Shown here piece by piece: positions 4,076 through 58,790 of a stretch of DNA of 61,516 nucleotides; position 1 is the first letter of the stretch, and the number at the start of each line of letters is the position of its first letter. The notes under the pieces were generated by a model that was not told the origin of the DNA, did not search any database, and saw only the letters and a list, made by a program, of their open reading frames with translations. A program made the position numbers and the translations under genes. This DNA is from Bacteroidota bacterium. GTDB lineage: Bacteria; Bacteroidota; Bacteroidia; Chitinophagales; Saprospiraceae. The stretch covers positions 1 through 61,516 of the forward strand of contig JAIUPL010000031.1 of NCBI GenBank assembly GCA_020160935.1. Direction: 5' to 3'.

Positions 4076-4196
4076 GTTCGGCTTCGCCTCATGCAAAGGG
4101 GGAAAAAGGATTTAGCGGATCGAGCGGATTAAATGGATTTTGTTCTGCCCGATCCGCAAAATCCTTTTTCCCCCTTTGCATGAGGCGAAGCCGAAC
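4076..4196. repeat. Long inverted repeat between convergent genes (IR1)
   Basis: Two 46-nt arms (4076-4121 and 4151-4196) pair with a single mismatch around a 29-nt loop. The outer end reads GTTCGGCTTCGCCTCATGC, followed by a G-run and an A-run, then GGATTT and AGCGGATCG. It almost fills the 147-bp gap between the stop codons of the prolyl oligopeptidase and DinB-like genes, and may act as a bidirectional terminator. It shares its GTTCGGCTT tip and a GGATTT-GCGGAT word with the inverted repeat at 9259-9437, so the two look related. Confidence 0.9.
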
Positions 4197-4207
4197 GAAT
4201 CATTTCC

Positions 4208-4735
4208 CTACAACCCCTGCCGATAAATCTGCTTCCTGTGCCGCTCCATATGCGTATTAAAAAACGACAACATCTGGAGCCAGGTGACCCTGCCTGCCCG
4301 CGGGTGTTTGTACACGAGTTTGTTGGCCAGCGCATCCGGCATTTGTTCAAAAAACTGCGTCCAGGCTGCCCGCGCCTGTTCCCACTTGGCGCGGGTTTCT
4401 GCAAATGTGGAAAATGCAGGCAATTTGTCTGTATCGATGGCAGGAGGTGCCGCATACCGAACCGGCAGGTGCAACGAAATACGAAGCAACAGGCTGCGCA
4501 CCCGGGCTGCCAGGTTGTTCTCCTCAAAATCAGAGGAAAACCCCATCTTTTTCCTCGTGTATGCCAGCGACAATTCTTCACTCATTGCCAGGTGGTGTAA
4601 AATCTGAATGGGCGTCCAACCTCCATCCGCAGGCTTTTTATTCAACTGTTCCTCTGAATAAGAAGACAGTGAATCGAGCAACAATTGTACCCGGGCACTG
4701 TAGTTTCGGTTTCTGGAAAGAATGGTTTGTTTCAT
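4208..4735 (-). CDS. DinB-like four-helix protein
   Basis: A 175-residue protein of the DinB/YfiT-like fold, predicted metal-binding cytoplasmic proteins. The probable metal ligands are visible as His in ILHHLAMSEE (around residue 48) and a C-terminal HMERHRKQI (around 162-170), the usual arrangement for this superfamily. Members include thiol-dependent transferases, but most Bacteroidota copies are uncharacterised, so no substrate can be given. It is a single gene, convergent with the prolyl oligopeptidase gene. No consensus promoter was found in the short gap to the divergent amidase gene. Confidence 0.8.
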   Translation of the reverse strand: MKQTILSRNRNYSARVQLLLDSLSSYSEEQLNKKPADGGWTPIQILHHLAMSEELSLAYTRKKMGFSSDFEENNLAARVRSLLLRISLHLPVRYAAPPAIDTDKLPAFSTFAETRAKWEQARAAWTQFFEQMPDALANKLVYKHPRAGRVTWLQMLSFFNTHMERHRKQIYRQGL

Positions 4736-4780
4736 TTATGCAATTGATTTTCAATAAATTAGAATAAAATAACGAACTGA

Positions 4781-4814
4781 TTGGCTTGGGTGTGACAACT
4801 TTTTTTCATTTTTG
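4781..4814 (+). promoter_or_regulatory. Possible promoter of the amidase gene
   Basis: Two TTG triplets (4781-4783 and 4786-4788) precede CATTTTTG (4807-4814), which differs from TAnnTTTG in one base. Spacing from the second TTG is 18 bases. It would give a leader of roughly 22 bases before the ATG. This is a near match only. Confidence 0.35.
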
Positions 4815-4841
4815 CACCTTGCCTGACCGTATCGATCAGTT

Positions 4842-6101
4842 ATGACGCTAACCCGAAATCTGTTGTTCATTCTTTTGTGCCTGGCAGGACGCCCCGTCGT
4901 GATGGGTGCACAGAATCTGCTCCAGCCCAAGAACTATATGTCGGTGGTTGCCCGTGCCGGCGACGACGTTCCATTGTTGTTGCAACGATACGGACTCTCC
5001 GATTTTCCGTGTAATATCACAGAATTTTTCAAGATCAACAAAATCAGGGAAGATTATCGCCTGAAATCAGGCGCTACCTACAAACTGCCGCTTTGGGTGG
5101 TGCCGTACAATGGAAAAAGCATAAGAACCACCCTCGGACTCGACGACTGGCAAACGGCCAAACGCATCGAAACCTTCAACAAACGCGCATGGGAAGACGG
5201 CCTACGCAACGACAATTTTTTGGAAAGCAAAAAACTTTGGGTGCCTTTTCACGAGATCAATTGCGAAGATGCGAGTGCGGAAAGCAATATTGGAAAATCT
5301 GAATCGGGTAAAACCGCAGTTTCTTCCGAACGAATAGAAGGTGGCGAAATCAGCGCCAAAGGCAGCCGTTCATTTTCCATTTTCGGCCCGAAATACGCCA
5401 AAACTCCGCTCGTCAGCAGCCGCTTGAAAGGGAAAGTGTTTTACCTGATTAGCGGCCACGGTGGCCCCGACAGCGGCGCCCAGGGCAGACGTGCGGGCAA
5501 TTTGCTTTGTGAAGACGAATACGCTTACGATGTGACATTGCGCCTGTTGCGCTTGCTTATCAGCCATGGCGCAACGGCTTACATGATTGTGCGCGATCCA
5601 AATGATGGTATTCGGGATGATAACTACTTGTTGTGCGACAAGGACGAGGTCGTGTGGGGAAACAAAAGAATCCCGATCAACCAGAAAGAACGTCTTCAGC
5701 AACGCACAGATCTGATTAACCAATTGACAGAAAAACACCTCAAATCAGGCCAGCGTGATCAAACAGTGGTAGAAATACATGTCGATTCCCGCAGCAAGGA
5801 CGCAAAAACGGATGTGTTTTTTTACTACCGCCCGGAGAGCGACGACAGCAAGGCGCTGGCGCAACATATTCACCGGACTTTTTTGGAAAAATACCTGCGC
5901 CTGCGCGGCCAACGTGGGTACATGGGCACAGTTAGCCCCCGATACCTGTTTACGCTACAGGAAACAACTTGTCAGCGCGCGGTGTACATCGAAATGGGAA
6001 ATATCAAAAACGACTGGGATCAACAACGACTCGTATTGAAAAACAACCGGCAGGCCGTGGCCAACTGGCTTTTTCAGGCTTTGAGTACGCACAAACCGTA
6101 G
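4842..6101 (+). CDS. N-acetylmuramoyl-L-alanine amidase (Amidase_3), exported
   Basis: A 419-residue exported zinc amidase that should cut the amide bond between MurNAc and L-Ala in peptidoglycan. A signal peptide ends near ARPVVMGAQ (residue 24). Residues 30-150 are LysM-like or otherwise cell-wall related (DDVPLLLQRYGLSD, INKIREDYRLKSGATYKLP); repeats are weak. The catalytic domain starts near residue 200, with zinc and catalytic motifs ISGHGGPDSGA, CEDEYAYDV, EIHVDS and YIEMGNIKN. Its stop codon lies only 2 bp from that of gldC, which is convergent. Confidence 0.85.
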   Translation: MTLTRNLLFILLCLAGRPVVMGAQNLLQPKNYMSVVARAGDDVPLLLQRYGLSDFPCNITEFFKINKIREDYRLKSGATYKLPLWVVPYNGKSIRTTLGLDDWQTAKRIETFNKRAWEDGLRNDNFLESKKLWVPFHEINCEDASAESNIGKSESGKTAVSSERIEGGEISAKGSRSFSIFGPKYAKTPLVSSRLKGKVFYLISGHGGPDSGAQGRRAGNLLCEDEYAYDVTLRLLRLLISHGATAYMIVRDPNDGIRDDNYLLCDKDEVVWGNKRIPINQKERLQQRTDLINQLTEKHLKSGQRDQTVVEIHVDSRSKDAKTDVFFYYRPESDDSKALAQHIHRTFLEKYLRLRGQRGYMGTVSPRYLFTLQETTCQRAVYIEMGNIKNDWDQQRLVLKNNRQAVANWLFQALSTHKP

Positions 6102-6103
6102 AA

Positions 6104-6454
6104 TTACTTGGATACTATCTCCGTTTTTTCTCCGAAATAATGCGCAAACTTGGCCATTTCTTCTGCCAGATCCTTGTTTTGCGTGGCACGCAGGTAGGTC
6201 TGACTCAATGAGCGAAGAATCTGGTACATAAACCGATCCATTTCCAGCACCTGCATTTCCTTGGTCCACAAGTCGATACGCAGGGTGTCTCTGTGGTCTT
6301 TGTCGAACAGTGCGACGGCCAGCGCCTTGCATTCTTCCAGTACACCATTGTTGCGGTCGCTGGCGCCCCATTCAATTTTTACAGGCACCTGTTCTGAATT
6401 CAGGCCGACCCGGATGGTGATATCACTTGATTTTACTACTTCGTTGTTGTCCAT
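6104..6454 (-). CDS. gldC: Gliding motility protein GldC
   Basis: A 116-residue cytoplasmic protein matching GldC of Bacteroidota. The recognisable pattern is SDITIRVGLNSEQVPVKIEW, then an acidic/hydrophobic middle (LRIDLWTKEM) and a C-terminal helix with FAHYFGEKTEI. GldC is needed for efficient gliding in Flavobacterium johnsoniae; its molecular role is unclear, and it also occurs in non-gliding members of the phylum. No other gld genes are in the window. It is a single gene, divergent from the AddB-like nuclease gene. Confidence 0.9.
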   Translation of the reverse strand: MDNNEVVKSSDITIRVGLNSEQVPVKIEWGASDRNNGVLEECKALAVALFDKDHRDTLRIDLWTKEMQVLEMDRFMYQILRSLSQTYLRATQNKDLAEEMAKFAHYFGEKTEIVSK

Positions 6455-6517
6455 ATTTCGTTCGAAAAAGATTGCGCGAAAGAAGGCGCGAAATTAAGGC
6501 AAAAAGATGGAAACGTC

Positions 6518-6525
6518 TATATTTG
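6518..6525 (+). promoter_or_regulatory. -7 promoter element immediately before a start codon
   Basis: TATATTTG matches TAnnTTTG exactly and ends 8 bases before the ATG at 6534. A transcript from it would begin at or just before that ATG. It therefore argues against the upstream in-frame ATG at 6507 as the real start. No TTG lies at the usual -33 distance. Confidence 0.45.
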
Positions 6526-6533
6526 CCAATACG

Positions 6534-9251
6534 ATGATATTGCATTTTGGCTCCGATTTCGATGGTATAGTGTACACTGGCCCTGCTGCACCCAAGGCAG
6601 GAGAGATATGGGCTGGCACTAAAAAATTGCTGCAATGGCTTGAAAATCAACTGGGATTGACGGGTTACCCGGAAAATACGGATTACCTGCGTATCGAATT
6701 GTACCGGCAGGCAATGGACCGGCACCTCCTCGAATGCGAACAGGAGCCTTTGCTGCGGCCCTTGCCGTTTTATGCGGCTTCCTACCATGCCGACCGTTTT
6801 GCTACGGCGTCGGTGTTATTGCAGCGCCGCGACGAACTGTTGTTGTCCGGCTGGAATTTTGACCCCGAATCCGAATGTCCGGAGCGTTTGCGCACATTTG
6901 CCGTAGTAGAAGATTTTTTCAGGGAAAAAGCGAACGACCCGACCCTGAAAAAGCAGGCGCACGGCTTTGCCGATCGTTTTTCGGCAGCGCTACAAATGCT
7001 GGCGGAAGATCATTTTATTCCATTGCAGGAATTGGTGCTGTACCAGCCGGAGCATTTGTTGAAGCCTCTTGCTCAACGCTTTGTATCGGAAATTCGACGC
7101 AGGCCCGGGATCGTCATCTCGCAACGATTACCGGGCGCCGCTGCCGGGGAAATAACTTTACTGGGGCGCCTGCAACGCAGGTTACTGCCTGCCGGGAAAA
7201 TTGAAAACGACTCACTTGCAGAACCGGATCATTCCCTTCTGATTTTACGGGCCCGGCGCGACAGCGACGCAGCCGTCGTATTGGCACAAATACTGCGCGA
7301 AAACCGTCAGATGCTGCCCACTTTCCTGATGCCGGAAATGGATCTGCTGCTGGAAAGAAGCATGGCGCAGGAAGGTATGCCCAATCTGGGTATTTTATCG
7401 GCTTCGCTGGCACGCCCTTCGCTTCAGGTGCTGAAACTGGCGCCGGCTTTCCTGTGGGAGCCGGTGGATGTTTTCAAAATCATGGAATTTGTAACCCTGG
7501 CAGTCAAACCGCTGGATTATGGACTAGCCATGGAAATTGCGCGAGTGATGGCCGAAAAACCCGGTATGATGAGCGATGCCTGGTTTGCAACGGTATTCGG
7601 TTACCTCGAACGGGGCGAAATCCCCGACAAGACCCGAAAGCAATACGAATTCTGGTTCGACCGGCGTCGTTACAAAGCCGATGCCACAGCGCCCAAAAAA
7701 GATGCAATTGCTATTTATGCGTACCTGCAGGAATGGGCGCTGGAATATTTTGAAGAAAATGGTAGTGTCAATACCTCATTTTTGGTGCTGGCCGAACAAG
7801 CGCGCCGAATTCGGGAATTGCTGGAAGCCCTTCCGGAACAACGGATTTCCTTTCTTGAACTAGAGCGCATCGTACGCACCATTTATCAGCCATCGCCCGT
7901 TCAATTTGCGTCGGCAGAAACCGGTTGTTTCCCGTATGCCCACCAGCCCGGCGCTTTTGCAGCGCCCGTGGATACCTTGATTTGGTGGAATTGCCTCTAC
8001 GAAAATATCGTACCGGCGCCCGACAAATGGCAGGAAGAAGAGCGTCGTTTTTTACAAGGCAAAAACGTGTCGCTACAGACGCCAGAACAGGAAGGGCAAT
8101 CGAATTTGTTGAGTCAGATGACGCCCGTTCTACAAACCACCAGGCAATTGATCCTTGTAGTGCCCGATCAGGCGGATGGGGTAGAAGTGGTGCCAAGTTT
8201 GATGCTGGGCGATATAGAAGCGGCGTTCCCGTTTTACCGAAAATTGATCTACTCGCTGGATAGTGAACAGGATCGCCGGAGGTTGTCTGAAATCCTGAAA
8301 GTGCCTGATTATGAAGCGCTTGCTATTCACCCTGCCGATCGAATGCGCCCACATTTGGTGTTGAAGCACCCGGAATTATTGATGGAAAGCGAGTATGAAA
8401 CGCCTACCAAACTCGACAGCCTGTTTTATTACCCGCATCGGTGGTTTTTCAGACAGCAACTGAATATGTATCGGTCGAGCCTGCTCAGCGTTACCGGCGA
8501 CAATACCTTGCTGGGTAGCCTGGCGCATCGGTTTTTTGAAAAGTTGCTCAAGGAGAACCTGGCCGATTTTGATCGGCGTGGTATTCAGGAATGGATAGAC
8601 CACGAATCACTTGCCTTGCTGGAAAAAGAAGGCGCTACACTTTTGCTGTATGGCCGCGAACCGGAACGACAAAGTTTTCTACAGCGTGTAAAAAATGCTG
8701 CCTGGAACCTCGTTTCGCTTATTCGCAACAACGGCTGGACGGTGTTGGATACTGAACTCCCGCTGGAAGGTTATTTTGGCAATATGCCGGTAAGAGGCAA
8801 AGCCGACCTGGTACTCCAACGCGATGATGAAAAAGCCATTGTCGACCTCAAATGGAGCGGTGCCACTCGCAGAAAAGAATTGATCCGTAATGGTGAAGAC
8901 CTGCAACTGGTGCTGTACGCCAAACTGCTGCCTCCACCCGAACAATGGCCGCATACGGCCTATTTTATCCTGGAAGACGGCAAAATGATTGCCCGAAATA
9001 CAGTTGCTTTCCGGGAGGCCATTTCGGCCGGTAAGGGAGAAGATCATGCCGCCGCCTGCGACACTATTTTCCGGAAAATGGAACAAACCTACGCCTGGAG
9101 GATGGAACAACTCAAAAAAGGTATGATCGAGTTGCGGACTGCCCGCACCGCTCCCGAACTGGAAGCCCTGTACGAAGGCCAATTGATGGATTTGCTGGAA
9201 ATGAAAAATGAAGATGCGAAGTGGGATGATTACCAGACGCTTCTGTGGTAG
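6534..9251 (+). CDS. AddB-like PD-(D/E)XK nuclease
   Basis: A 905-residue cytoplasmic protein of the Bacteroidota AddB-like PD-(D/E)XK nuclease family, thought to take part in double-strand-break repair together with a UvrD/AddA-type helicase. The nuclease domain is at the C-terminus: VRGKADLVL supplies an acidic metal ligand, IVDLKWSG the D-x-K motif, and ELIRNGEDLQLVLYAKLL the QxxxY-type helix. The N-terminal part has no Walker A motif, so it is not an active helicase. I chose the second Met (MILHFGSD) because a -7 element lies just before it and relatives begin at that point. No helicase partner gene is adjacent in the window. Confidence 0.8.
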   Translation: MILHFGSDFDGIVYTGPAAPKAGEIWAGTKKLLQWLENQLGLTGYPENTDYLRIELYRQAMDRHLLECEQEPLLRPLPFYAASYHADRFATASVLLQRRDELLLSGWNFDPESECPERLRTFAVVEDFFREKANDPTLKKQAHGFADRFSAALQMLAEDHFIPLQELVLYQPEHLLKPLAQRFVSEIRRRPGIVISQRLPGAAAGEITLLGRLQRRLLPAGKIENDSLAEPDHSLLILRARRDSDAAVVLAQILRENRQMLPTFLMPEMDLLLERSMAQEGMPNLGILSASLARPSLQVLKLAPAFLWEPVDVFKIMEFVTLAVKPLDYGLAMEIARVMAEKPGMMSDAWFATVFGYLERGEIPDKTRKQYEFWFDRRRYKADATAPKKDAIAIYAYLQEWALEYFEENGSVNTSFLVLAEQARRIRELLEALPEQRISFLELERIVRTIYQPSPVQFASAETGCFPYAHQPGAFAAPVDTLIWWNCLYENIVPAPDKWQEEERRFLQGKNVSLQTPEQEGQSNLLSQMTPVLQTTRQLILVVPDQADGVEVVPSLMLGDIEAAFPFYRKLIYSLDSEQDRRRLSEILKVPDYEALAIHPADRMRPHLVLKHPELLMESEYETPTKLDSLFYYPHRWFFRQQLNMYRSSLLSVTGDNTLLGSLAHRFFEKLLKENLADFDRRGIQEWIDHESLALLEKEGATLLLYGREPERQSFLQRVKNAAWNLVSLIRNNGWTVLDTELPLEGYFGNMPVRGKADLVLQRDDEKAIVDLKWSGATRRKELIRNGEDLQLVLYAKLLPPPEQWPHTAYFILEDGKMIARNTVAFREAISAGKGEDHAAACDTIFRKMEQTYAWRMEQLKKGMIELRTARTAPELEALYEGQLMDLLEMKNEDAKWDDYQTLLW

Positions 9252-9258
9252 GGGATGG

Positions 9259-9437
9259 GAAGGTTCGGCTTTGCCGAACGGGGGGATTTGGGATTTTGCG
9301 GATTCAGCGGATCAAATAGATTTTTTTTAAAATTTCTATCAGGTAAATCAAAAAAAGTGGCCGTCAGGCCACAAAAATCAGTAAAATCCGCTGAACCCGC
9401 AAAATCCCAAATCCCCGTTCGGCGAAGCCGAACCTTC
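9259..9437. repeat. Long inverted repeat between convergent genes (IR2)
   Basis: Arms of 54 nt (9259-9312) and 52 nt (9386-9437) pair with two extra G on the left and two mismatches. Their outer end, GGTTCGGCTT(T/C)GCCGAAC, is itself a small palindrome, followed by GATTTGGGATTTTGCGG. The loop holds a further hairpin, GTGGCC-GTCA-GGCCAC (9357-9372). It fills the gap between the AddB-like gene and the DUF4252/T9SS gene and resembles IR1 at 4076-4196. Confidence 0.9.
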
Positions 9438-9441
9438 TTCA

Positions 9442-10212
9442 TTATCGAATCAATTGCAATTGCTGAATCCCGACCTTACCCTGCCTGGTTACCAACTGCA
9501 CCCAATACGTGCCGCTGTTCAGGTGGCCGAGTTCAATTTGCTCCTGCGACTGACCGGAAAGTTGAATGCTGGATACCTGTCGCCCGTTTTGGTCGATGAT
9601 CGACATGGAAACTGGTGCATCATCCTTTGCAGCGTATTTCAGTGTAATCGAGCCTTTGCTGGGATTGGGACTGATTTGAAATTCAGTTTTGTTCTGGGCG
9701 CTTCTTTCGGCCAGGTTTTTGGCATCTGTTGCATCGAATAAGGCGGCTAAAGAAGGGAGGTCGCCGAGATCGATTTGCCCATGAAACAAAATGAGCACGA
9801 AGTTCTCGGGCGCTCCCACGAGCAGGACAATATCGGTCAGAAGATCGGATTCTTCTTTCGCCCAGATGCGTACGGCAGTCTGATCGTCGCGAACAGCCAG
9901 CAAAGCAGATAATTCGTTTTCATCTACCAAATTGTAGGCTTCCTTGTACAATTGTAGTCCATTGCTGACCTTTTCGGAGGCCAGGATGTGCAGGCTACCG
10001 ATGTCTTTTACCACGTGCTGGATTTTCTTCCAATCTTCGTTGGAAACATCCGTTTTCAGCGTGACATTGAGCAGGTCTTTACTGATAAAGGCAAAAGTAA
10101 AGGCAGGGTCATTTTTGTGTTTTTGAACAAATGACTGGAGCGCATCGCTGGTTTGAGCATGCAACAGGCAGGCGAACAGGAAAGCCGGCAAAAGCAGGAA
10201 TCTTTTTTTCAT
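9442..10212 (-). CDS. DUF4252-like secreted protein with T9SS sorting domain
   Basis: A 256-residue protein with a signal peptide (MKKRFLLLPAFLFACLLHAQ), a DUF4252-like domain (residues about 25-165) and a C-terminal T9SS type A sorting domain. The sorting domain is recognisable by FQISPNPSKGSITLKY, an INxxGRxV-like VSMSIIDQNGRQV, and LNSGTYWVQL. It should therefore be exported by Sec, moved across the outer membrane by the type IX system and anchored or released. DUF4252 proteins are usually small lipoproteins of unknown function; the fusion to a sorting domain is less common. It ends in the arm of an inverted repeat and lies 100 bp downstream of a large lipoprotein gene in the same direction. 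Confidence 0.8.
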   Translation of the reverse strand: MKKRFLLLPAFLFACLLHAQTSDALQSFVQKHKNDPAFTFAFISKDLLNVTLKTDVSNEDWKKIQHVVKDIGSLHILASEKVSNGLQLYKEAYNLVDENELSALLAVRDDQTAVRIWAKEESDLLTDIVLLVGAPENFVLILFHGQIDLGDLPSLAALFDATDAKNLAERSAQNKTEFQISPNPSKGSITLKYAAKDDAPVSMSIIDQNGRQVSSIQLSGQSQEQIELGHLNSGTYWVQLVTRQGKVGIQQLQLIR

Positions 10213-10312
10213 AGCAATAACTTAAAAAATGAAAGAACGATAGAATGAAAAGCAGACGCCTGCGCCAATGGGAATGTTACACTGAAAGTCGGAATTGACA
10301 TTCCTTACTGTG

Positions 10313-13300: not shown

Positions 13301-13645
13301 CCAGCCTTCCATACCCGCCACGCCGGCCTGATCGGTTACATCTTTGAATTTCAGCCCACCCTGGTTCAAATACATCTTGTTGGGCCCCATATTGTTGGTA
13401 AAATACAGATCGACCAGCCCGTCGTTGTTGAAATCGCCTGCTCCTACGCCGCCACCGTTAAAGAAGTACATGTAATTGAATACATTGAACTCGCCGCTTT
13501 GGTGCAATTCGTTCATAAAATCGAGCCCGGTACTTTCTTTCCGAAGCAACTGGAACAAGGCTGGTTTCTTTTCCTTCTGCCCGCAGGAGGCAAGAAAAAA
13601 GGATAAAACGATCACTCCAACGGGTAAGAATATATGCTTGATCAT
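10313..13645 (-). CDS. Large FG-GAP/VCBS repeat lipoprotein with ASPIC/UnbV domain (CRTAC1 family)
   Basis: A 1110-residue lipoprotein (signal ending FFLASC). It consists almost wholly of FG-GAP/VCBS calcium-binding propeller repeats, each with a D-x-N-x-D-G-x-x-D motif: GDFNNDGLVDLYF near residue 70, GDLNNDGYPDIYIG, ADVNNDGWNDI, GDVNGDGLEDVFFG and ADLDGDEDQDLLLA. An ASPIC/UnbV domain sits near the middle (HGIGTKILVF to YCIWPDGSYQRI). Such proteins are common in Bacteroidota and are inferred to be surface or matrix proteins; the real function is unknown. The start was placed at MIKHIF rather than 17 codons upstream, because a full promoter lies directly before it and the lipobox position then fits. 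Confidence 0.85.
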   Translation of the reverse strand: MIKHIFLPVGVIVLSFFLASCGQKEKKPALFQLLRKESTGLDFMNELHQSGEFNVFNYMYFFNGGGVGAGDFNNDGLVDLYFTNNMGPNKMYLNQGGLKFKDVTDQAGVAGMEGWTSGISVVDLNNDGMLDLYVGQIGEYQSIHGRNQLFICTGIDNGVPHYEDRAATYGLDLKGFATQASFFDYDLDGDLDMFQLNHSLHQNGTFGPKKAFEGQMHPLAGDRLMRNDNGKFTDVTAQSGILSTVIGYGLGIVTGDLNNDGYPDIYIGNDFHENDYLYINQKNGTFRESITEEMMHTSQFSMGVDMADVNNDGWNDIISLDMLPEDPYILKSSLGEDNYGLYQYKIGHGYHYQFTRNNLQLNNGDGTFSEIGLFAGVAATDWSWSPLWMDFDSDGFKDLFVSNGIPRRMNDIDFVKFQEDRGLQLKENSTRSVDEKELAVVDRMPRVKLPNKLFRNTGKLRFDDLSEQIGSAVTSFSNGAVYADLDNDGDLDIVTNNLEDEPFVYQNLLRESNPTAGAYLSFQLKGQPGNSHGIGTKILVFKHDGSRETEEFYPVRGYQSSAHIPLYVGVGDQASIDSVYCIWPDGSYQRIANLVFNQPQILEWNANLPRADFNKVYPPQKPAFAFEDISARTGLNFKHIENPFVEFNRETLIPNMVSTEGPALAVGDVNGDGLEDVFFGSSKRERSALYIQKSGGVFKLETPEAIVQDSMFEDVDAVFADLENDGDLDLVIAAGGNEYRGKDEQMKQRAYLNDGKGHFTRVDPFPTLFMTASCVLPCDFNGDGRTDFFFGGRAVPWNYGITPNSYLMQNMGNGRFEDVTASAAPGLGDVGLVKKGAWADLDGDEDQDLLLAMEWAPLTVFVNNQGKFEKKTLATGSGWWNFALPYDFDGDGDVDILAGNTGGNCRFKPTDTEPVKMYVSDFDGNGQVEQILTYYLKGREIPFANHEEMMKAIPMLKKKYLMATNFAKASVSDLFGNEKLSKAVLREADRFESMYFENTGQAFTYTAHVLPDALQFSTLNAAALQDLDGDGKKEVVLGGNFYECNIEMGRYDAFYGKVLSIGPGGKMSLSSLGDLRMKGETRRIQEVHVGKKPCLVFARNNATAVVIGKK

Positions 13646-13650
13646 ACGGG

Positions 13651-13678
13651 CAAAGATAGCATTTCTCATTTCGGACAA
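13651..13678 (-). promoter_or_regulatory. Promoter of the FG-GAP lipoprotein gene, apparently leaderless
   Basis: On the minus strand TTG (13678-13676), 17 bases, then TATCTTTG (13658-13651) match the phylum promoter well. Only five bases (CCCGT) separate the -7 element from the ATG at 13645. Transcription would start at or next to the start codon. Confidence 0.6.
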
Positions 13679-13722
13679 GGCGTAGTATTCTTGCATCCTT
13701 TTGTGAAGAATAACAAAAACGC

Positions 13723-16065: not shown

Positions 16066-16124
16066 TGCATTCAAGACAATTTTTGGAGTGGAATATTGGT
16101 CAGGTAATTCATTGTAGATTCCCC

Positions 16125-16285
16125 GTAGAGTAATTTCCCGCAGAACTCGCAGATTTACCCGCAGAACTCGCAGAATGTAGAGTACACTTAGAGTACTCCT
16201 TTTTTTCGCTTTGAAAATATTGGTGTACTCTACATTCTGCGAGTTCTGCGGGTAAATCTGCGAGTTCTGCGGGAAATTACTCTAC
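16125..16285. repeat. Perfect 63-bp inverted repeat (IR3)
   Basis: The arms 16125-16187 and 16223-16285 are exact reverse complements over all 63 nt around a 35-nt loop. Each arm is built from degenerate words: CCCGCAGAACTCGCAGA occurs twice and GTAGAGTA at both ends. The 370-bp gap between the peptidase gene and the DksA-like gene holds this element, its tandem extension and a terminator, and no gene. Confidence 0.95.
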
Positions 16286-16330
16286 GTTCTGCGGGAAATT
16301 ACTCTACATGCTGCGGGAAACTCCTCTACG
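16265..16330. repeat. Three 22-bp tandem repeats extending IR3
   Basis: The right arm of the perfect inverted repeat runs into three consecutive 22-bp units, TTCTGCGGGAAATTACTCTA plus CG, then the same plus CA, then a diverged copy (TGCTGCGGGAAACTCCTCTA plus CG). Only the first unit has its partner in the left arm. Confidence 0.85.
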
Positions 16331-16341
16331 CAAACAACCCA

Positions 16342-16384
16342 CAAAAAAATATCCCGAACCCTGGCCTTGACCAAAATTCGGGAT
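16342..16384 (-). terminator. Possible terminator after the DksA-like gene region
   Basis: ATCCCGAA (16351-16358) and TTCGGGAT (16377-16384) form an 8-bp stem. On the minus strand it is followed by ATTTTTTTG, as expected for an intrinsic terminator of the DksA-like gene that ends at 16436. Confidence 0.65.
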
Positions 16385-16435
16385 GACGCATGTCAGAATT
16401 AAAGTGCCTTACAAGAGGCGAAGCGCACAAAAAAA

Positions 16436-17026: not shown

Positions 17027-17083
17027 AATTGTCAGGTTAAAAATTACGGTGTGTTTGAGAATTTCTTTCTGGTTTTTGCGGGG

Positions 17084-21029: not shown

Positions 21030-21118
21030 ATCAAGGGGATATTGATATTATTCCCGTATAATTGGACAATGAATTGGATGCGAGGCATCCAATTCATTGT
21101 TTGTAATCTGCTGTAACC
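21030..21118 (+). terminator. Nested hairpin after the saccharopine-dehydrogenase-like gene (IR4)
   Basis: A perfect 16-bp stem (ACAATGAATTGGATGC at 21066-21081 with its complement at 21085-21100) closes on a 3-nt GAG loop. An outer, imperfect pair (TTACAGTAGAT / ATCTGCTGTAA) brackets it. The run after the stem is TTTGTAAT rather than a clean T-tract, so termination is likely but not certain. It occupies most of the gap before the next co-directional gene. Confidence 0.6.
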
Positions 21119-22788: not shown

Positions 22789-23448
22789 ATGCTTACCTAT
22801 ATTTTTCTGCAATGTTCTTTTATGGACCATCTCCCGATGGCCCTTGCCCTTTGCCTCCTGCCCTTCCTGTTGGGCTGGCTGGCCGGCTATCTTTTCCACA
22901 ACGTCGGCGGAATGAAAGGTCAGATCAACAGCCTTACCACCTCCAATGGTGAACTGAATACAAAAGTGAGCAGCCTGACCGGTGAAACGACCGACCTGCG
23001 TGTTCAACTTTCGCAAAGGGATGCAGAACTGGAGCGCTTGAATGAAGTACTACGCAAATCGAAGAGCGACCTTATGCTGTGCGAAAGCGAACGCATGGCA
23101 CTGCGCGAACAACTTAACAATGCCGGCAGTGGCGGCTCAGCCAAGGTGGCCAAGGCTGCCGCTGCTGCAACCATCCTGTTCGCAGGCTCAAAATATAAAA
23201 TGGACGACCTGAAAATCGTGGAAGGGATCGGCCCGAAAATAGCCGACCTCCTCAATAAAGAAGGTATTAATACCTGGAAACAACTCTCCGAAACGGCTGC
23301 TGAAACCATCAGTGGTATTCTGCACGCGGCCGGCCCCAACTTCCAGATTCACGACCCGGGCACCTGGCCACACCAGGCCCGACTCGCCGACGAAGGCAAG
23401 TGGGATGAATTGAAAAAGTTGCAGGATGAGTTGAAAGGAGGGAAGTGA
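22789..23448 (+). CDS. Membrane-anchored coiled-coil protein with helix-hairpin-helix domain
   Basis: A 219-residue protein with one N-terminal transmembrane helix (MALALCLLPFLLGWLAGYLF, residues 17-36), a heptad-like coiled coil (residues 45-110), an Ala-rich linker and a C-terminal helix-hairpin-helix domain of the kind annotated as flap-endonuclease-like (COG3743: LKIVEGIGPKIADLLNKEGI, RIHDPG-like IHDPGTWPHQA, GKWDELKKLQDEL). The HhH domain suggests DNA or protein binding; nuclease activity is not shown. Translation could start at MLTYIF or at MDHLPM 11 codons on. It pairs with the upstream OmpA-like gene. Its stop codon TGA begins an inverted repeat. Confidence 0.8.
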   Translation: MLTYIFLQCSFMDHLPMALALCLLPFLLGWLAGYLFHNVGGMKGQINSLTTSNGELNTKVSSLTGETTDLRVQLSQRDAELERLNEVLRKSKSDLMLCESERMALREQLNNAGSGGSAKVAKAAAAATILFAGSKYKMDDLKIVEGIGPKIADLLNKEGINTWKQLSETAAETISGILHAAGPNFQIHDPGTWPHQARLADEGKWDELKKLQDELKGGK

Positions 23449-23590
23449 GTTATGAGTTATGAGTTAGTAAGTTATGAGTTATGAGTTATACACACATTGC
23501 TTATGGCTACATTATAAGGAAAGCCAAAAACAACGTGAGTATAACTCATAACTCATAACTTACTAACTCATAACTCAATACTCATAACTT
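23446..23590. repeat. Inverted repeat with GAGTTAT-word arms (IR5)
   Basis: Arms made of repeated GAGTTAT/GAGTTAGTAAGTTAT words pair around the inner core ACACATTGCTTATGGCT on the left and AAAAACAACGTGAGTATA on the right, with about 45 nt of almost continuous pairing. It contains the stop codons of both convergent neighbours: TGA at 23446-23448 (HhH gene) and TGA, read on the minus strand, at 23584-23582 (membrane gene). Same family as the elements at 25344-25464 and 40046-40191. Confidence 0.92.
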
Positions 23591-24895: not shown

Positions 24896-25040
24896 CGTTA
24901 TCTGTTATTGGTAATCGGTTATCAGGGATGGATAAGGGATTATTTTCAACATTCTCATGCTCCTTCGTTTATATGGCCTTGTGATTGTGAAAATAATCCC
25001 TTATCCATCCCTGATAACTGATAACTAATAACGGATAACC
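24896..25040. repeat. Inverted repeat with GTTATC-word arms in a divergent promoter gap (IR6)
   Basis: Two 53-nt arms (24896-24948 and 24988-25040) pair with five mismatches, all in the outer half; the inner 31 nt are perfect (GTTATCAGGGATGGATAAGG onward). The outer half is a string of GTTATC/GTTATT/GGTAATC words. Loop 39 nt. Unlike most others in the window it lies between two divergent genes, directly abutting a -7 promoter element. Confidence 0.92.
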
Positions 25041-25054: not shown

Positions 25055-25345
25055 ATGAAGAAGAGCAATGAACTCCACCTGCAGGATGCCATGAAAGAGA
25101 TGATCCAGGAATATCGCCTGGGCCCTCAACTCAATGAAACACGGGTCAGGAATCTGTGGCATGAACTTATGGGAAAAACCATTTCTACCTATACGACCAG
25201 TATTCAGGTGCGCAAAAACGTGCTCTATCTTACCATTGTTTCGGCTTCCCTCAAACACGAACTTTCTTTTGCCAAAGAAAAAATCCTCAACCTGCTCAAT
25301 GAAGAACTGGGTGAGGATTTTATTAAAGAAGTGGTTATAAGGTAG
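25055..25345 (+). CDS. DUF721 (DciA-like) protein
   Basis: A 96-residue cytoplasmic protein of the DUF721 family (LGPQLNETRVRNLWHELMGK, IQVRKNVLYLTIVSASLKHE). In other bacteria DciA, a DUF721-containing protein, loads the replicative helicase DnaB; the short Bacteroidota proteins are inferred to be related, but this role is not shown for them. Family alignment requires the N-terminus MKKSNELHLQDAM, supporting the start chosen. It sits between two inverted repeats: one directly upstream, and another whose arm begins at its stop codon (TAG, 25343-25345). Confidence 0.8.
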   Translation: MKKSNELHLQDAMKEMIQEYRLGPQLNETRVRNLWHELMGKTISTYTTSIQVRKNVLYLTIVSASLKHELSFAKEKILNLLNEELGEDFIKEVVIR

Positions 25346-25464
25346 TTATGAGTTATAAGTTATGAGTTATGAGTTATACTCACATTGCTATTGGCTTTTC
25401 CTATAGTGTAACTAAAAGCAACGTGAGTATAACTCATAACTCATAACTTATAACTTATAACTCA
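25344..25464. repeat. Inverted repeat with GAGTTAT-word arms (IR7)
   Basis: Left arm AGTTATGAGTTATAAGTTAT and onward pairs with the right arm through almost 40 nt (two mismatches), ending in the core ACTCACATTGCTATTGGCTTT on the left and AAAAGCAACGTGAGT on the right. It is the same family as the element 1.9 kb upstream. The left arm begins within the DUF721 stop codon, and the right arm supplies the TGA of the lysyl-oxidase-domain gene (25464-25462). Confidence 0.92.
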
Positions 25465-34564: not shown

Positions 34565-34615
34565 GAATTTTTGGGAGAAAGGCATTGGGTCGGCTACGCC
34601 TTTCTCCCAAAATTC
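34565..34615 (+). terminator. Hairpin between two co-directional genes (IR8)
   Basis: GAATTTTTGGGAGAAAGGC (34565-34583) pairs with GCCTTTCTCCCAAAATTC (34598-34615) with one bulged T; loop 14 nt. The sequence after it is GAGATGACTC, with no T-run, so this is a 3'-end hairpin or attenuator rather than a clear intrinsic terminator. Confidence 0.55.
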
Positions 34616-39007: not shown

Positions 39008-40066
39008 ATGATTGCGTCTTCTGCCCCTCTTGCTGCGGCAACCGAATCCAAGCACCTGTTTCTTCGTGCCGCTGCAGGTGCAGCCACCGAACGCCCACCT
39101 GTCTGGCTGATGCGGCAGGCAGGCCGAATTTTGCCCCAATACAGGGCATTGCGTGCGAACTTCCCTGATTTCAAGGCGTTTGTAAAAACACCGGAAGCCG
39201 CCGCAGAAGCCACCATTCAGCCGGTAGATGAACTGGGTGTAGATGCTGCCATCATCTTTTCAGATATTCTGGTGGTACCGGAAGCCATGGGACTGGATTA
39301 TGAAATGATCGAGGCAAAAGGCCCGCGATTCCCGCAGGTGATTGAAAATCAACATGATGTAGCAAAATTGATTTCCGGCGCCGAAGCCGCTTCTCATCTC
39401 ACATATGTGTACGAGGCCCTGAAAATCACCAAACGCGAACTCGCCGATCGCGTACCACTTATTGGTTTTGCCGGTGCTCCCTGGACGATTTTTGCCTATA
39501 TGGTGGAAGGAGGCGGCAGCAAAACTTTTTCGAAAGCCCGCCGCATGTTGTACAGCCAGCCTGAATTGTCGCATGCGCTGCTGCAGAAAATTACCGATAC
39601 CACCATCGTTTACTTGCGCAACCAGGTAGAATCGGGCGCTGATTTGATTCAGTTGTTTGACTCCTGGGCAGGCGAATTGCCGCCGGCACATTACAGTGCA
39701 TTTTCAGTGCCATACCTCCAACAGATTTGCGAAGCGCTCCCGGAAGTGCCCAAAACAGTGTTTGCCAAAGGCGCCTGGTTTGCTCTTGAAGAATTGGCAA
39801 ATTTACCCTGCCAGGTGATTGGCCTCGACTGGAATATTACACCGGAATATGCCAAAAAGGCCACAAGCGGTAAAAAGGTACTGCAAGGCAACCTCGACCC
39901 GTGTGCTTTATACGCCGATATTCCGACCATTGAAAAAGAAACCCGTAAAATGCTGAAGGCTTTTGGCAGCAATCATATTGTCAACCTCGGCCATGGCGTA
40001 TACCCGGATACGCCGCTCGATGGGGTGCGGGCGTTTGTACAAACAGTAGTGAGTAGTGAGTGGTGA
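39008..40066 (+). CDS. hemE: Uroporphyrinogen decarboxylase HemE
   Basis: A 352-residue cytoplasmic enzyme that decarboxylates uroporphyrinogen III to coproporphyrinogen III in heme synthesis. The family signature [20 protein letters not shown] near residue 30 and the second signature [20 protein letters not shown] near residue 155 are complete, and [16 protein letters not shown] marks the C-terminus; length agrees with the family. The last codons (VVSSEW plus TGA) are read from GAGTAGT-type repeat words, so an arm of an inverted repeat has become the end of the gene. It is monocistronic as far as seen. Confidence 0.95.
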
Positions 40067-40191
40067 GTAGTGAGTAGTGAGTGGTGAGTAGTGAGTGGTG
40101 ATTACACACATTGCTATTGGTTTCTTCATTAGAGTGACCAATAGCAATGTGTGTAAAACTCACTACTCACCACTCACTACTCACTACTCAA
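40046..40191. repeat. Inverted repeat with GAGTAGT/GAGTGGT arms (IR9)
   Basis: The left arm (40046-40121) is about eight copies of a 7-bp word, GAGTAGT or GAGTGGT, followed by the core ACACACATTGCTATTGGT; the right arm (40137-40191) carries ACCAATAGCAATGTGTGT, then the complementary words. The core is perfectly paired. It matches the core of the repeats at 23446 and 25344, although the outer words differ. Both convergent genes end in it: hemE (TGA, 40064-40066) and the haloperoxidase-like gene (TAG, 40179-40177, after Leu-Ser-Ser-Glu). Confidence 0.92.
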
Positions 40192-41556
40192 GACTCCCGC
40201 CTCCGCTCTTCTCAGCGCCAGCGCATTCACTTTTTGTCCCACCATTTTGCCAAGTCGGAGCCCTTCCTTGCAGTCCATTCGGTAGTGAACGCCGATGAGC
40301 ACACGGGAGGCGGCGTTTTCCTGTGCCATTTCAGCAAAAGATAGATAGGTGCGGGGTTTGCCCGTAAACTCTTGCCGATGTTCGTGCGTTCGATCGGTAA
40401 GGGTAAAGTGTTCGCCCAGTTGAGCCGCCAGCACTTCCGCCGCTGCGGCTCCGAAAGCAGAGTGCCCGGAAGGGTAGGAGGGGAAGTTCGGGTTGTCGTG
40501 CAGCGGCTTCCATTCGGTTTTCATTACCCTGCGGATATAACTGTCAGGCCTTTCCCGGTTGTACGTATATTTTCCATGCCAGGTAACAATCCCGACATCG
40601 CACAAAGCCATGGCGGTTTTTAAATACGTTTCGATAACCTGCTCAAAAGGCAACTGTGCCTGTGCCAGCGCCTGATTGGCAATAGCGATCCATCTGCCGG
40701 CGGGCGTAACCGTAAGTCCAGGTAGGTCGTCGCTCCACAATTCAGCAATCCACCTGTTTTCCTTGCTCAAGGGATGTGAAACAGCCAGTAGTTCCAACGC
40801 TTCCGTATGTAAGCCCGAACCGGGAGATTCCTCAAAGGGGAGCGGCGGTTTTACTGGTACGTCTGCAGGGGCGGCTACGAATGAGCGAACCTTGCCCCAA
40901 TTTGGCAGAAGGGCTGGCAAAGGCCTGTTGCCCTGTGGCTGCCAGCAACCGGCACAAGTAGGAGGAACATATTTTTTATCAAAATTGTACAAAAATGCAT
41001 CATGACCTTCTTTATCAGTCATCGACCATTGCCAGACGGCCTTGCTGACCAATTGTCCGTAAGTTTTGGATTGATACAGTATTTCGTTGTCTATGATTTC
41101 ATGAAAACGGCGCGCATAACGATCCTCCAGGTCGTCGATGCGCTTTTTCATGTAGTCAGGAGTGGTAGGGAAAAAATCGCGCAGGATTTGCGCGTAGGCT
41201 GCATTTACGCTCGTTGGCAAGTGAAATTTTGCAACCGCCGGCAAAATAGACGGCCGCTCGTATCCCGGACAGTATTGTTCCATGGATTCATAGCCCTTTA
41301 AATCAGGCAATGCTGCTTCGTAAGCCGCCATTTCCACATAGGCAAACATACGCGCACTGATTGGAGGCCGGTATCCCGGTGTATAACGTTCCAGGTCGAG
41401 CATCAACCGATTCCAGGCCATGGTAGTTTCCGTAGCCATTTTATGTGCTTCGGACTCCCTTTCACCCAATGGCCGGCAACTTTCACTCAGTAAAACGCTG
41501 AACAAAAGAATGGCAAAAAGGGTATTTGTCAGACAGGCAAACCATTTTCTTTTCAT
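40177..41556 (-). CDS. Vanadium-dependent haloperoxidase-like / PAP2 lipoprotein (copy 2)
   Basis: A 459-residue lipoprotein (signal ending SVLLSESC). The C-terminal third carries the full vanadate/phosphate-binding set of this superfamily: K-x6-RP in HGKYTYNRERPDSY, PSGH in YPSGHSAFGAAAAEVL, and SR-x5-H in ASRVLIGVHYRMD. The superfamily contains haloperoxidases that bind vanadate and acid phosphatases that bind phosphate; sequence alone does not decide between them. A paralogue lies at 43865-45247, with a two-component system between the two. This copy is 88 bp downstream of the histidine kinase in the same direction and probably belongs to its operon. Its last four codons and stop come from a repeat arm. 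Confidence 0.85.
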   Translation of the reverse strand: MKRKWFACLTNTLFAILLFSVLLSESCRPLGERESEAHKMATETTMAWNRLMLDLERYTPGYRPPISARMFAYVEMAAYEAALPDLKGYESMEQYCPGYERPSILPAVAKFHLPTSVNAAYAQILRDFFPTTPDYMKKRIDDLEDRYARRFHEIIDNEILYQSKTYGQLVSKAVWQWSMTDKEGHDAFLYNFDKKYVPPTCAGCWQPQGNRPLPALLPNWGKVRSFVAAPADVPVKPPLPFEESPGSGLHTEALELLAVSHPLSKENRWIAELWSDDLPGLTVTPAGRWIAIANQALAQAQLPFEQVIETYLKTAMALCDVGIVTWHGKYTYNRERPDSYIRRVMKTEWKPLHDNPNFPSYPSGHSAFGAAAAEVLAAQLGEHFTLTDRTHEHRQEFTGKPRTYLSFAEMAQENAASRVLIGVHYRMDCKEGLRLGKMVGQKVNALALRRAEAGVLSSE

Positions 41557-48235: not shown

Positions 48236-48344
48236 GTGTACTCTACGCTTAGTGTCCTTTGTGAAACCTTGGTGTCTATTGTGGAAAAAATTTAACCACG
48301 AAGTACACCAAGGTTTCACAAAGGACACTAAGCGTAGAGTACAC
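48236..48344. repeat. Long inverted repeat after the TonB receptor gene (IR10)
   Basis: Two 49-nt arms (48236-48284 and 48296-48344) pair perfectly for the outer 40 nt and loosely for the rest, around an 11-nt loop. The arm starts GTGTACTCTACGCTTAGTGT and goes on with CCTTTGTGAAACC. Its outer word GTGTACTCTAC also forms the inner end of the perfect stem at 16125-16285. It lies between two co-directional genes. The 308-bp gap before araR holds this element, an operator and a promoter, and nothing else was seen. Confidence 0.92.
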
Positions 48345-56782: not shown

Positions 56783-56817
56783 GGGTCGCCGATGCTACAT
56801 TGGCGACTCGTTTTGTT
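56783..56817 (+). terminator. Intrinsic terminator after araD
   Basis: GGGTCGCCGATG pairs with CATTGGCGACTC (12 bp including two G-U pairs) around a CTA loop, and GTTTTGTT follows. It ends the araBAD-GH51 transcript or attenuates it before the HAD/galM genes. Confidence 0.75.
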
Positions 56818-56856
56818 CACTACTAAATTCAACAACTTTCGGAGGAATTCAGATAT

Positions 56857-57522
56857 ATGCAACCTGCATTGATTTTTGATATGGATGGTACAATGGTCGA
56901 CAATATGATGACCCACCATCGTGGCTGGCAAAGAACCTTGAAAAAGTACGGGCTTGATTTTACCCTCGAACAGGTTATAGAAAATTGTCACGGAAAAAAC
57001 ATCGAGATTATCGAGCGCCTCTTTCCGGGTAAATACACCCTGGAAGAACGCGAGGAAATTTCTTTTGAAAAAGAAAGTGGATACCGGGAGATTTTTTTGC
57101 AGGAATTGAGGCTGGTAGACGGTCTTGATGTTTTACTTGAAACAGCGTATAAAAACAATATTCCCATGGGGATCGGCACGGCAGCACCCAAGGCCAACGT
57201 GGATTTTGTACTGGACAACCTGAACATTCGACATTACTTTCAGGTCGTTGTTCATGCCGATGATGTGACGAAAGGAAAACCGGAGCCTGAGGTTTTTTTC
57301 AAAGTTGCAGACCAGTTAAACGTACCATACCAGCATTGCCTTGTCTTCGAAGACTCTCCAACCGGAGCCCGCACAGCCCTGAATGCGGGCATGAAAGCCG
57401 TTATTCTGACTACGACACACAAGGAAGAAGAATTTGCAGCCATTCCAAGCGTCATGCTATGCGTCCCCGATTTCACCTCAATAGACATTTTGTCCTTACT
57501 TGAAAATCTACACCAGACATGA
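56857..57522 (+). CDS. HAD-family phosphatase / beta-phosphoglucomutase-like protein
   Basis: A 221-residue HAD-superfamily enzyme. Motif I DMDGTMVDN (residues 8-16), motif II GIGTAAPK, motif III Lys in TKGKPEPEVF and motif IV FEDSPTGARTALNAGM are all present, with the cap domain of subclass I. Members act as sugar phosphatases or as beta-phosphoglucomutase; a sugar-phosphate substrate fits the neighbours, but the specific one is unknown. A strong ribosome binding site, GGAGGA, sits 10 bases before the ATG, rare in this genome. It overlaps galM by 4 bp, so the two are coupled. Confidence 0.88.
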   Translation: MQPALIFDMDGTMVDNMMTHHRGWQRTLKKYGLDFTLEQVIENCHGKNIEIIERLFPGKYTLEEREEISFEKESGYREIFLQELRLVDGLDVLLETAYKNNIPMGIGTAAPKANVDFVLDNLNIRHYFQVVVHADDVTKGKPEPEVFFKVADQLNVPYQHCLVFEDSPTGARTALNAGMKAVILTTTHKEEEFAAIPSVMLCVPDFTSIDILSLLENLHQT

Positions 57523-58676
57523 AAAAAATCTATCCTTTCTCCCTGCTGCTTATCACAGCATTGGTATGCTTTCAATCCTGTAAAAACGCGCCTTCACAGC
57601 CTAAAGCCGGCATAGAAAAAACCGCATATGGCATCCTCCCGGATGGCCGCGCCGTCGATATTTACACCCTACGGAATGAAAACGGGATGACCCTGCGCAT
57701 TACCAATTATGGGGGCACCATCGTATCGTGGACGGCGCCCGACAGAAACGGCGTTTATCAGGATGTAGTACTGGGTTGCGATTCACTGTCCGGCTATCTG
57801 CACGGTACGCCATATTTCGGAGCCATTATCGGGCGATATGGCAACCGCATTGCCAAGGGGAATTTCACACTTGACAACAATACCTATAATCTTGCAACGA
57901 ACAACATCGGAAACCATCTTCATGGAGGCATTAAAGGTTTCGACAAGGTGCTTTGGGATGCTCAGATAGTAGATACCGATACTCCTTCCAATCCGACGCT
58001 ACGACTCAAATATTACTCTAAGGATGGCGAGGAAGGGTATCCCGGTGGCCTCCAGGCGGAAGTAACTTATACCTTGTTGAAAGACAATGCATTAAACATA
58101 CACTATGAGGCCATCACAGACAAGCCAACAGTTGTCAACCTCACCAATCATTCCTATTTCAATCTGGCGGATGCCGGAAAAACAACTATTCTGGATCAGG
58201 AACTTGTGTTAAACACACCCATGTATCTCCCAGTGGATAGCACCCTGATTCCCACAGGTGAGTTGCGACCGGTAAAAGGAACAGTTTTCGATTTTTCGAA
58301 ACCCACAAAAATCGGCGCTCGTATCAATGACACTTCCGATATACAGATCAAATATGGCCTGGGTTATGACCATTGCTGGATTACGGCCAGAAGCAATTCC
58401 GGAACTCCTGAAAATATTGCTTCTCTGTATGATCCTGCTTCCGGCCGTTTAATGGAGGTTTTGACGACCGAGCCGGCCGTACAGTTTTATACTGGAAATT
58501 TCCTGGATGGTACCGTAATTGGCAAAGGCGGAATGCCTTACAAGCATCGCACCGGACTTTGCCTGGAAACACAACACTATCCGGACTCTCCCAACCATCC
58601 GGCATTTCCGAGTACGGTATTGAGGCCGGGTGAGAAATATGAGTCAACAACTGTGTATCGGTTTTCTGTGAAGTAG
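57519..58676 (+). CDS. galM: Aldose 1-epimerase (mutarotase) lipoprotein
   Basis: A 385-residue mutarotase that interconverts alpha and beta anomers of aldoses. The signal ends FQSC, so it is probably a periplasmic or surface lipoprotein. Catalytic histidines are in GNHLHGGIKGFDKVLWDA and LTNHSYFNLAD, and the C-terminal catalytic Glu is in RTGLCLETQHYPDSPNHPAF. It likely acts on arabinose released by the upstream arabinofuranosidases. It starts in the stop codon of the HAD gene (ATGA overlap). Confidence 0.93.
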   Translation: MKKIYPFSLLLITALVCFQSCKNAPSQPKAGIEKTAYGILPDGRAVDIYTLRNENGMTLRITNYGGTIVSWTAPDRNGVYQDVVLGCDSLSGYLHGTPYFGAIIGRYGNRIAKGNFTLDNNTYNLATNNIGNHLHGGIKGFDKVLWDAQIVDTDTPSNPTLRLKYYSKDGEEGYPGGLQAEVTYTLLKDNALNIHYEAITDKPTVVNLTNHSYFNLADAGKTTILDQELVLNTPMYLPVDSTLIPTGELRPVKGTVFDFSKPTKIGARINDTSDIQIKYGLGYDHCWITARSNSGTPENIASLYDPASGRLMEVLTTEPAVQFYTGNFLDGTVIGKGGMPYKHRTGLCLETQHYPDSPNHPAFPSTVLRPGEKYESTTVYRFSVK

Positions 58677-58677
58677 G

Positions 58678-58790
58678 GTAGTATGGGCTTTTAGCCCGTC
58701 GGGACAGCGCCTTTTAAGGCGCTATAAATAGAATTTTTATCGTGAGCGCCTTAAAAGGCGCTGTCCCGACGGGCTAAAAGCCCATGCTAC
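58678..58790. repeat. Long inverted repeat with nested palindromes (IR11)
   Basis: Two 46-nt arms (58678-58723 and 58745-58790) pair with a single mismatch around a 21-nt loop. Each arm contains two small palindromes of its own, GGGCTTTTAGCCC and GCGCCTTTTAAGGCGC, so the whole could form a four-armed structure as well as one long stem. It fills the 124-bp gap between the stop codons of the convergent galM and amidohydrolase genes. Confidence 0.92.

Follow-up and report, generated by a model that had tools for sequence, protein, structure and literature searches.

Hairpins with concertedly evolving arms form a genome-wide, often word-built population at gene ends of a Saprospiraceae bacterium

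The contig JAIUPL010000031.1 from the genome of a Saprospiraceae bacterium (Bacteroidota; assembly GCA_020160935.1), analysed over its whole length of 61,516 nt and called the window below, carries nine long hairpins at the boundaries of its genes. A repeat search and our own seeded finder (arms of at least 25 nt, arm identity of at least 85%, loop of at most 170 nt) yielded the same nine loci, and no long hairpin occurred in 40 order-2 and 40 order-4 Markov simulations of the window. Hence, the long inverted repeats described here by a sequence-only reading are real. Folded with DNA parameters, all nine elements form mainly one long hairpin, with z from −10.6 to −19.1; three were folded as trimmed fragments (9282-9416, 16136-16274, and 40058-40203). 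The elements, none of which is assigned to a strand, are as follows, with outer limits from the repeat search.

4076..4196: hairpin, family TTCGCC...GCGGAT, flanked by the 3' ends of a forward-strand gene (ending at 4060) and a reverse-strand DinB gene (4208-4735)
9259..9437: hairpin of the same TTCGCC...GCGGAT family as 4076, in the convergent gap 9252-9441, with an inner GTGGCC-GGCCAC stem near the centre
16124..16286: hairpin, family CCCGCAGA, core GTAGAGTACAC, in a convergent gap; arms of 64 nt, 100% complementary
23446..23584: hairpin, family AGTTATG (7-nt words), extending beyond both gene ends (23448, forward strand; 23582, reverse strand)
24897..25039: hairpin, family GTTATTG (7-nt words), in a divergent gap
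25344..25462: hairpin, family AGTTATG, filling a convergent gap to both gene ends (25345, forward strand; 25462, reverse strand)
40045..40203: hairpin, family AGTAGTG (7-nt words), inner arm ACACACATTGCTATTGGT, in a convergent gap
48236..48344: hairpin, family GTCCTTTGTG, outer end GTGTACTCTACGC, in a tandem gap
58677..58791: hairpin (GGTAGTATGGGCTTTTAGCCC...) resembling a REPIN, that is, a hairpin-forming doublet of repetitive extragenic palindromes (REPs); it begins right after the stop codon ending at 58676

Seven of the nine lie in convergent gaps, the exceptions being 24897 and 48236. The bias toward convergent genes noted earlier thus stands, while the earlier count of six has to be raised, because window:4208-4735:- encodes a DinB_2 protein, overlooked by our codon-based gene caller, which makes the gap at 4076 convergent. 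The element at 16124 is followed by two more 22-nt partial copies, reaching 16329.

Density, families and placement

The window is contig C5 of the host genome (G000; 5.84 Mb, 51 contigs). In 40 stretches of 20 kb from this genome, taken at two fixed positions on each of 20 contigs (800 kb), we found 152 hairpins, or about one per 5.3 kb, which extrapolates to ∼1,100 per genome. An order-4 Markov control contained none. The median arm length was 48.5 nt (range 25-102, the lower bound being set by the finder). Stretches added later were chosen for synteny and brought the set to 213 hairpins in 1.12 Mb of the host and 134 in 0.89 Mb of a relative, G040.

The hairpins fall into families. Used as a genome query, the element at 58677 found 27 near-full-length places including itself and three partial ones. 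The queries 25344 and 16124 each found at least 40 places (the best 40 of 112 and of 82 candidates, respectively, were scored), and 4076 gave dozens of matches, mostly arm-length (best 40 of 67 candidates scored). These single-element queries covered four window elements, and the other five carry family signatures; the window sequences are therefore not the one-offs that the statement on their largely differing primary sequences had implied. The signatures, hand-made regular expressions, are present in 323 of the 347 5' arms of both genomes and define 18 families with at least two copies in the host stretches. Ten of the 18 families tested, with 200 of the 347 hairpins, are clearly periodic at 7, 8, or 10 nt (autocorrelation of at least 0.45), the remaining families having a weak 9-nt or no clear period. 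In particular, AGTTATG, AGTAGTG, AGTCCTG, GTTATTG, GGGCAAG, and GAATGATG have a period of 7 accompanied by 14 and 21. The nine window hairpins thus belong to a population of ∼20 families, about half of which clearly consist of 7-10-nt words around a family-specific core.

The link of these sequences to hairpins is strong for some families and loose for others. The commonest core, GTAGAGTACAC, occurs 129 times inside a hairpin or no more than 40 nt from one vs. three times elsewhere, and AGTCCTG arrays 120 times in or near hairpins vs. four elsewhere; arrays of AGTAGTG (15 of 38), GTGAGAG (64 of 105), and GTTGATGAGG (11 of 16) often lie outside. At G040:C225:30980-31156, search hits show many overlapping AGTAGTG-word matches, as in a longer direct array. 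Ten of the 347 arms carried two signatures; four were dropped for overlapping or ambiguous signatures, and in the six kept as composites one family lies outside and another inside. For instance, a GTTATTG hairpin of the host has an orthologue in G040 with GTTATTG words outside and AGTCCTG words inside. We also considered a GGC-N-GCC tip, mostly with N15, as a universal signature and rejected it. It is frequent only in AGTTATG (21 of 30), GTTATTG (15 of 36), and AGTCCTG (17 of 60), the three families in which the GGC-N15-GCC tip exceeds random centres (469 of 10,067), other families having zero to two cases each per genome.

Hairpins of this kind are not restricted to the host. Twelve genomes of the same genus contained 20 hairpins in 400 kb, and several of them carry similar hairpins with other words; the recurrence of the architecture with differing sequence, proposed for the window, extends to other species. 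In loci of more distant relatives, we found 13 hairpins in 500 kb. The AGTTATG word family is narrow, as its exact hairpin pattern was found in only two of 395 genomes of the phylum, the host included, a single pattern that says nothing about the other families. No description of such a hairpin system was found among the papers listed by searches of an open-access library.

Both genomes have the highest occupancy in convergent gaps, in agreement with the enrichment suggested earlier. In the host, hairpins were present in 69 of 131 convergent gaps, 110 of 525 tandem ones, and 20 of 132 divergent ones; the corresponding counts in G040 are 53 of 98, 64 of 461, and 13 of 97. The gene calls are those of a crude home-made codon-score caller, and some "tandem" gaps may be convergent, since it overlooked at least one gene (DinB). 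When a 3' gene end faces a hairpin, the distance is within 20 nt in 277 of 427 cases, 109 of these being overlapped. Among the 161 hairpins of the window and the 800-kb sample, only two lie inside a called gene, and eight lie at stretch edges. According to the description in PMC3733652, GTAG/CGTC REPs have the same placement, and therefore placement alone is no proof of function.

Comparison with a syntenic relative

The relative G040 is syntenic with the host: window positions 22-42 kb align as three blocks with 82-87% identity. The mean identity of 115 orthologous proteins is 92.3% (all chosen to match at ≥70% over ≥250 aa), and four-fold degenerate sites differ by 41.9%. Between the hairpins at 23446 and 24897, the window has a PMT_2-like mannosyltransferase gene (23582-24796, reverse strand) that G040 lacks at the corresponding position; there, the alignment blocks on either side adjoin directly.

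Among 232 orthologous gaps, 171 are empty in both genomes, 27 hold hairpins of the same family, 12 hold different families, 15 are occupied in the host only, and seven in G040 only, so that 22 of the 61 gaps with a hairpin are occupied in one genome. The same family was found at 27 of 39 doubly occupied sites vs. 3.2 expected by chance (maximum 11 in 10,000 shuffles), from which we conclude that families are kept at sites. Together with the many relatives of the four searched elements, this leaves unsupported the part of the earlier view that set simple descent aside. At the 12 different-family sites, there are seven clean replacements, two composites, judged by eye, that keep the old outer words, and three cases where the G040 hairpin is outside the signatures. 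Clean replacements include three window elements: 25344 is replaced in G040 by a GTGAGAG-family hairpin, 40045 by an AGTTATG-family hairpin, and 58677 by a AGGATTAGAAGGATT-family hairpin. The orthologue of 4076 belongs to the same family with other words, that of 9259 to the same family with a centre aligning better when inverted, and the gaps orthologous to 16124 and 48236 are without a hairpin.

To compare arms, both arms from both genomes were aligned four ways at the 27 same-family sites. Of 1,085 ungapped columns, 867 were the same, 114 concerted (differing between the genomes but agreeing within each hairpin), nine arm-specific, ten crossed, and 85 single or other. Judging from the 41.9% difference at four-fold sites, arms left alone for the same time should differ by tens of percent; within elements the median arm identity is 0.954, a median difference of ∼5%, in a set for which the finder demands at least 85%. 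We did not use as evidence the 531 concerted indel columns, partly trivial as the finder gives both arms equal length, nor the free-end-gap arm identities, which are inflated by tandem words (0.94 within elements, 0.87 between orthologues, 0.88 for coding flanks, and 0.94 for the best paralogue). The loops of 25 same-family pairs could also be compared: four align better as the reverse complement, two directly, and 19 are undecided, as are the loops of all 11 different-family pairs. Three loops look inverted, those at 9282 in the window, 49522 in C32, and 37783 in C42 (positions within joined pieces); the fourth, in a GGGCAAG pair, was discarded as a word-array artefact.

The concerted columns, 114 vs. 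nine arm-specific ones, and the three inverted-looking loops support the proposal that some process keeps both arms identical. Template switching between the arms of inverted repeats leads to arm homogenisation and spacer inversion, as described in PMC8604942 and PMC8794818, and since this combination is its expected product, we infer template switching here. The hairpins form a genome-wide population of REP-like, often word-built elements whose arms evolve in concert, and we consider it probable that the arms are homogenised at the DNA level by template switching.

Mobility, RNA function and artefact

A different and clearly less probable explanation is that the hairpins are REPIN-like elements or miniature inverted-repeat transposable elements (MITEs) mobilised by a transposase, e.g. 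a REP-associated tyrosine transposase (RAYT), the identity of the arms reflecting recent insertion. The host has two Y1_Tnp (RAYT-like) genes, L001 on C42 and L002 on C29, each adjoining REP-like hairpins. None of the family signatures is present in these hairpins (AGGGCGTTGCCCT..., GTTGGCGAGGACGCCAAC), and with no signature-bearing hairpin at either Y1_Tnp locus we rejected a RAYT origin of the word families. At L002, the Y1_Tnp match is flanked by two direct copies of the GTTGGCGAGGACGCCAAC element.

The ends of the hairpins give mixed indications, judged by eye among the copies listed for eight families. The outer ends of the AGTTATG, GTTATTG, AGTCCTG, GTTGATGAGG, and GTGTTTTG arrays have no constant tag. 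By the same inspection, several CCCGCAGA copies carry GTAG at their outer end, and it is also part of the GTAGAGTACAC core of several families. The 58677 family is REPIN-like, with GTAG near the ends in some copies and GTGG in others. Some families may therefore be related to REPs, GTAG being in the GTAGAGTACAC core.

The presence or absence of a hairpin at 22 orthologous gaps is compatible with insertion, but no consistent target duplication was seen by eye among the presence/absence alignments listed. In favour of mobilisation are also the similarity ranks of orthologues among the family members of the other genome: eight of 25 orthologues are at rank 1, but 13 are at 0.4 or below. Against mobilisation, the family is kept at most doubly occupied sites, and orthologous arms of the same family show the 114 concerted changes, though re-insertion could yield these too. 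As to the earlier idea of recombination sites, replacement and nesting are seen, but the search, made for Y1_Tnp genes, linked no recombinase to the word families.

It is rather unlikely that the hairpins are functional RNA 3' elements, i.e. bidirectional terminators or protectors of mRNA 3' ends whose pairing is kept by selection on RNA structure. Their position close to 3' gene ends and the strong convergent enrichment would suit such a role, as would the 39 orthologous sites that stay occupied though the family differs in 12; on the other hand, REPs share the placement by the account in PMC3733652, and 22 of the 61 orthologous gaps are occupied in one genome only. The mismatches between the arms also speak against it. 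Selection for RNA pairing would give mostly G-U mismatches on the sense strand, and in tandem gaps we counted 153 G-U, 154 A-C, and 201 transversions, no G-U excess.

U-tracts point the same way. Only 28 of 177 tandem hairpins have at least five T in the next 10 nt downstream, and 107 of 122 occupied convergent gaps are without a U-tract stem, unlike what is expected of intrinsic terminators. Together with the lack of G-U bias, this gives no support to the bidirectional termination that had been proposed, taken as intrinsic. There is one weak sign that hairpins substitute for U-tract terminators: in convergent gaps, these are rarer with a hairpin (15 of 122) than without (10 of 35; Fisher p = 0.033). 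In tandem gaps they are not rarer (15 of 173 with a hairpin, 27 of 464 without). The window had no Rfam match at gathering thresholds, and a simple terminator scan of positions 1-20000 gave no signal, with 29 found vs. 28.1 expected. The hairpins may have a 3'-end role at some sites, yet this is not what keeps their arms matched.

The window also has two shorter hairpins, which fold with z of −6.3 (21070) and −5.5 (34570):

21070..21103, forward strand: short 12-bp hairpin with a T-rich tail, 3' of the gene end at 21011, probably terminator-like
34570..34614, forward strand: short 14-bp hairpin, 3' of the gene end at 34528, probably terminator-like

A U-tract terminator-like stem (ATCCCGAATTTTGG...TTCGGGAT) recurs at 16351-16384 of the window (reverse strand) and in orthologous gaps of G040; it is a hairpin class apart from the word hairpins. 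Repeats of another type occur in the open reading frame for 1127 aa at 10313-13696 (reverse strand), which contains degenerate 30-40-nt direct repeats at 11280-13280, as in a repeat-domain protein.

Finally, an assembly or amplification artefact (chimeric foldback molecules) is practically negligible as an explanation: the closest named relatives of one window protein come from metagenome-assembled genomes, one of a Saprospiraceae and one of a Bacteroidota bacterium, and the window genome is probably of the same kind, but the architecture recurs at orthologous gaps of a second genome, the hairpins form defined families, and they hardly ever lie inside called genes or at stretch edges.

Proposed template switching, probable nuclease loss and significance

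Under homogenisation by template switching, one arm would be copied from the other during replication (quasi-palindrome correction), which would keep the arms identical and could also invert the loop. Within a family, elements would overwrite each other across loci or insert anew, and the middle of an existing hairpin could take up a further one. Under purifying selection, hairpins would remain where they are least harmful, immediately downstream of stop codons and most of all in convergent gaps.

The loss of a hairpin nuclease, SbcCD, probably makes such a population possible. SbcCD of Escherichia coli acts on palindromes. In 14 genomes searched, SbcD was over the cut-off only in G008 and G012, and 11 others had a weaker match; the SbcD search of the whole host genome gave no SbcD-like match. 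Long SbcC matches were also limited to G008 and G012 (∼134-152 bits per piece, in frames of 1223-1229 aa). These two SbcD-positive genomes of the same genus contained one hairpin in 160 kb, as compared to 19 in 240 kb of six large relatives without SbcD over the cut-off (binomial p = 0.0008, ignoring kinship). In G040 (C67:129905-133413) and seven other relatives, a weak SbcD match and a weak SbcC match lie close together on a single contig, in frames of ∼380-430 and 800-845 aa; they may be a shorter Mre11/Rad50-like pair.

Several observations weigh against template switching within hairpins and the loss of SbcCD as a full account. On average, the orthologue of a hairpin is not more similar to it than other members of the family in the other genome are (n = 25, mean rank 0.55; Wilcoxon p = 0.36), so family members must often overwrite one another or re-insert. 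Copying within a hairpin does not account for these ranks, which also require re-insertion or copying from one locus to another. Re-insertion could mimic both the concerted change of arms and the inversion of loops. The within-element identity is ascertained, as the finder demands at least 85%, and the relaxed scan, which revealed few poorer hairpins (17 of 381 below 85%), is weak at low identity. Of the four loop inversions called, one was an artefact, and the 25 loops tested also include two direct and 19 undecided ones. For the nuclease, all genomes searched stayed below the SbcC cut-off, as did all but one of 14 control genomes; two SbcD-positive genomes are too few, and the counts ignore kinship. 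Moreover, four smaller relatives without SbcD over the cut-off had no hairpins in 80 kb, so the loss of SbcCD is not sufficient. Overall, the data suggest that it is permissive.

One may go further and regard the hairpins, after the loss of SbcCD, as a self-sustaining, replication-borne mobile element that has no transposase of its own and settles at gene 3' ends. Such an element would spread and overwrite itself as the replication machinery switches templates, be it inside one locus or from one locus to another, and new hairpins would arise at the tips of existing ones. We consider this extension doubtful.

Heptamer short tandemly repeated repetitive (STRR) sequences are known from cyanobacteria. 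As in these, the period-7 families described here contain intergenic degenerate 7-nt words, arranged as direct tandem heptamers within the arms. According to PMC4679880, the TAACTGA heptamers of Beggiatoaceae and some Bacteroidetes repeat in direct orientation and, in the main Beggiatoaceae genome, stand for the most part immediately 5' of start codons. In contrast, the arrays described in the present work form matched inverted pairs, mostly downstream of stop codons.

REPs, bacterial interspersed mosaic elements (BIMEs), and REPINs are, in the terms of PMC3733652, high-copy extragenic palindromes and inverted dimers found mainly between convergent or unidirectional genes, conv-REPs being mostly <20 bp from both 3' ends. 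The hairpins studied here are also high-copy extragenic palindromes, mainly 3' of genes. They differ in the length of the arms (median 48.5 nt and up to 102 nt, vs. 20-40 bp given there for REP units), in that many are built of 7-10-nt words, in comprising ∼20 families, and in that we saw no RAYT flanked by the same repeat, the word families not being beside the two Y1_Tnp genes. BrickBuilt, a MITE of Porphyromonas gingivalis, is similar in belonging to Bacteroidota, in being intergenic, and in having tandem words within the repeat element (a 23-nt minisatellite); it is one element type, with 19 copies in one strain and small inverted-repeat ends, and by its description not a full-length hairpin (PMC4596501). 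Quasi-palindrome correction predicts arm homogenisation and spacer inversion, and concerted arm change is seen here. The cases reported in PMC8604942 and PMC8794818 are single events in yeast coding DNA and RNA genes, whereas here the process would act on a genome-wide hairpin population. The population has a testable link to the loss of a hairpin nuclease.

In these hairpins, arm homogenisation, nesting, and the replacement of one hairpin by another can be followed in nature across a whole genome, and the idea that hairpin nucleases determine the palindrome load of a bacterial genome becomes testable. They are also a warning that covarying arms alone are no proof of a selected RNA structure, as covariation here is extensive and comes without a G-U bias.

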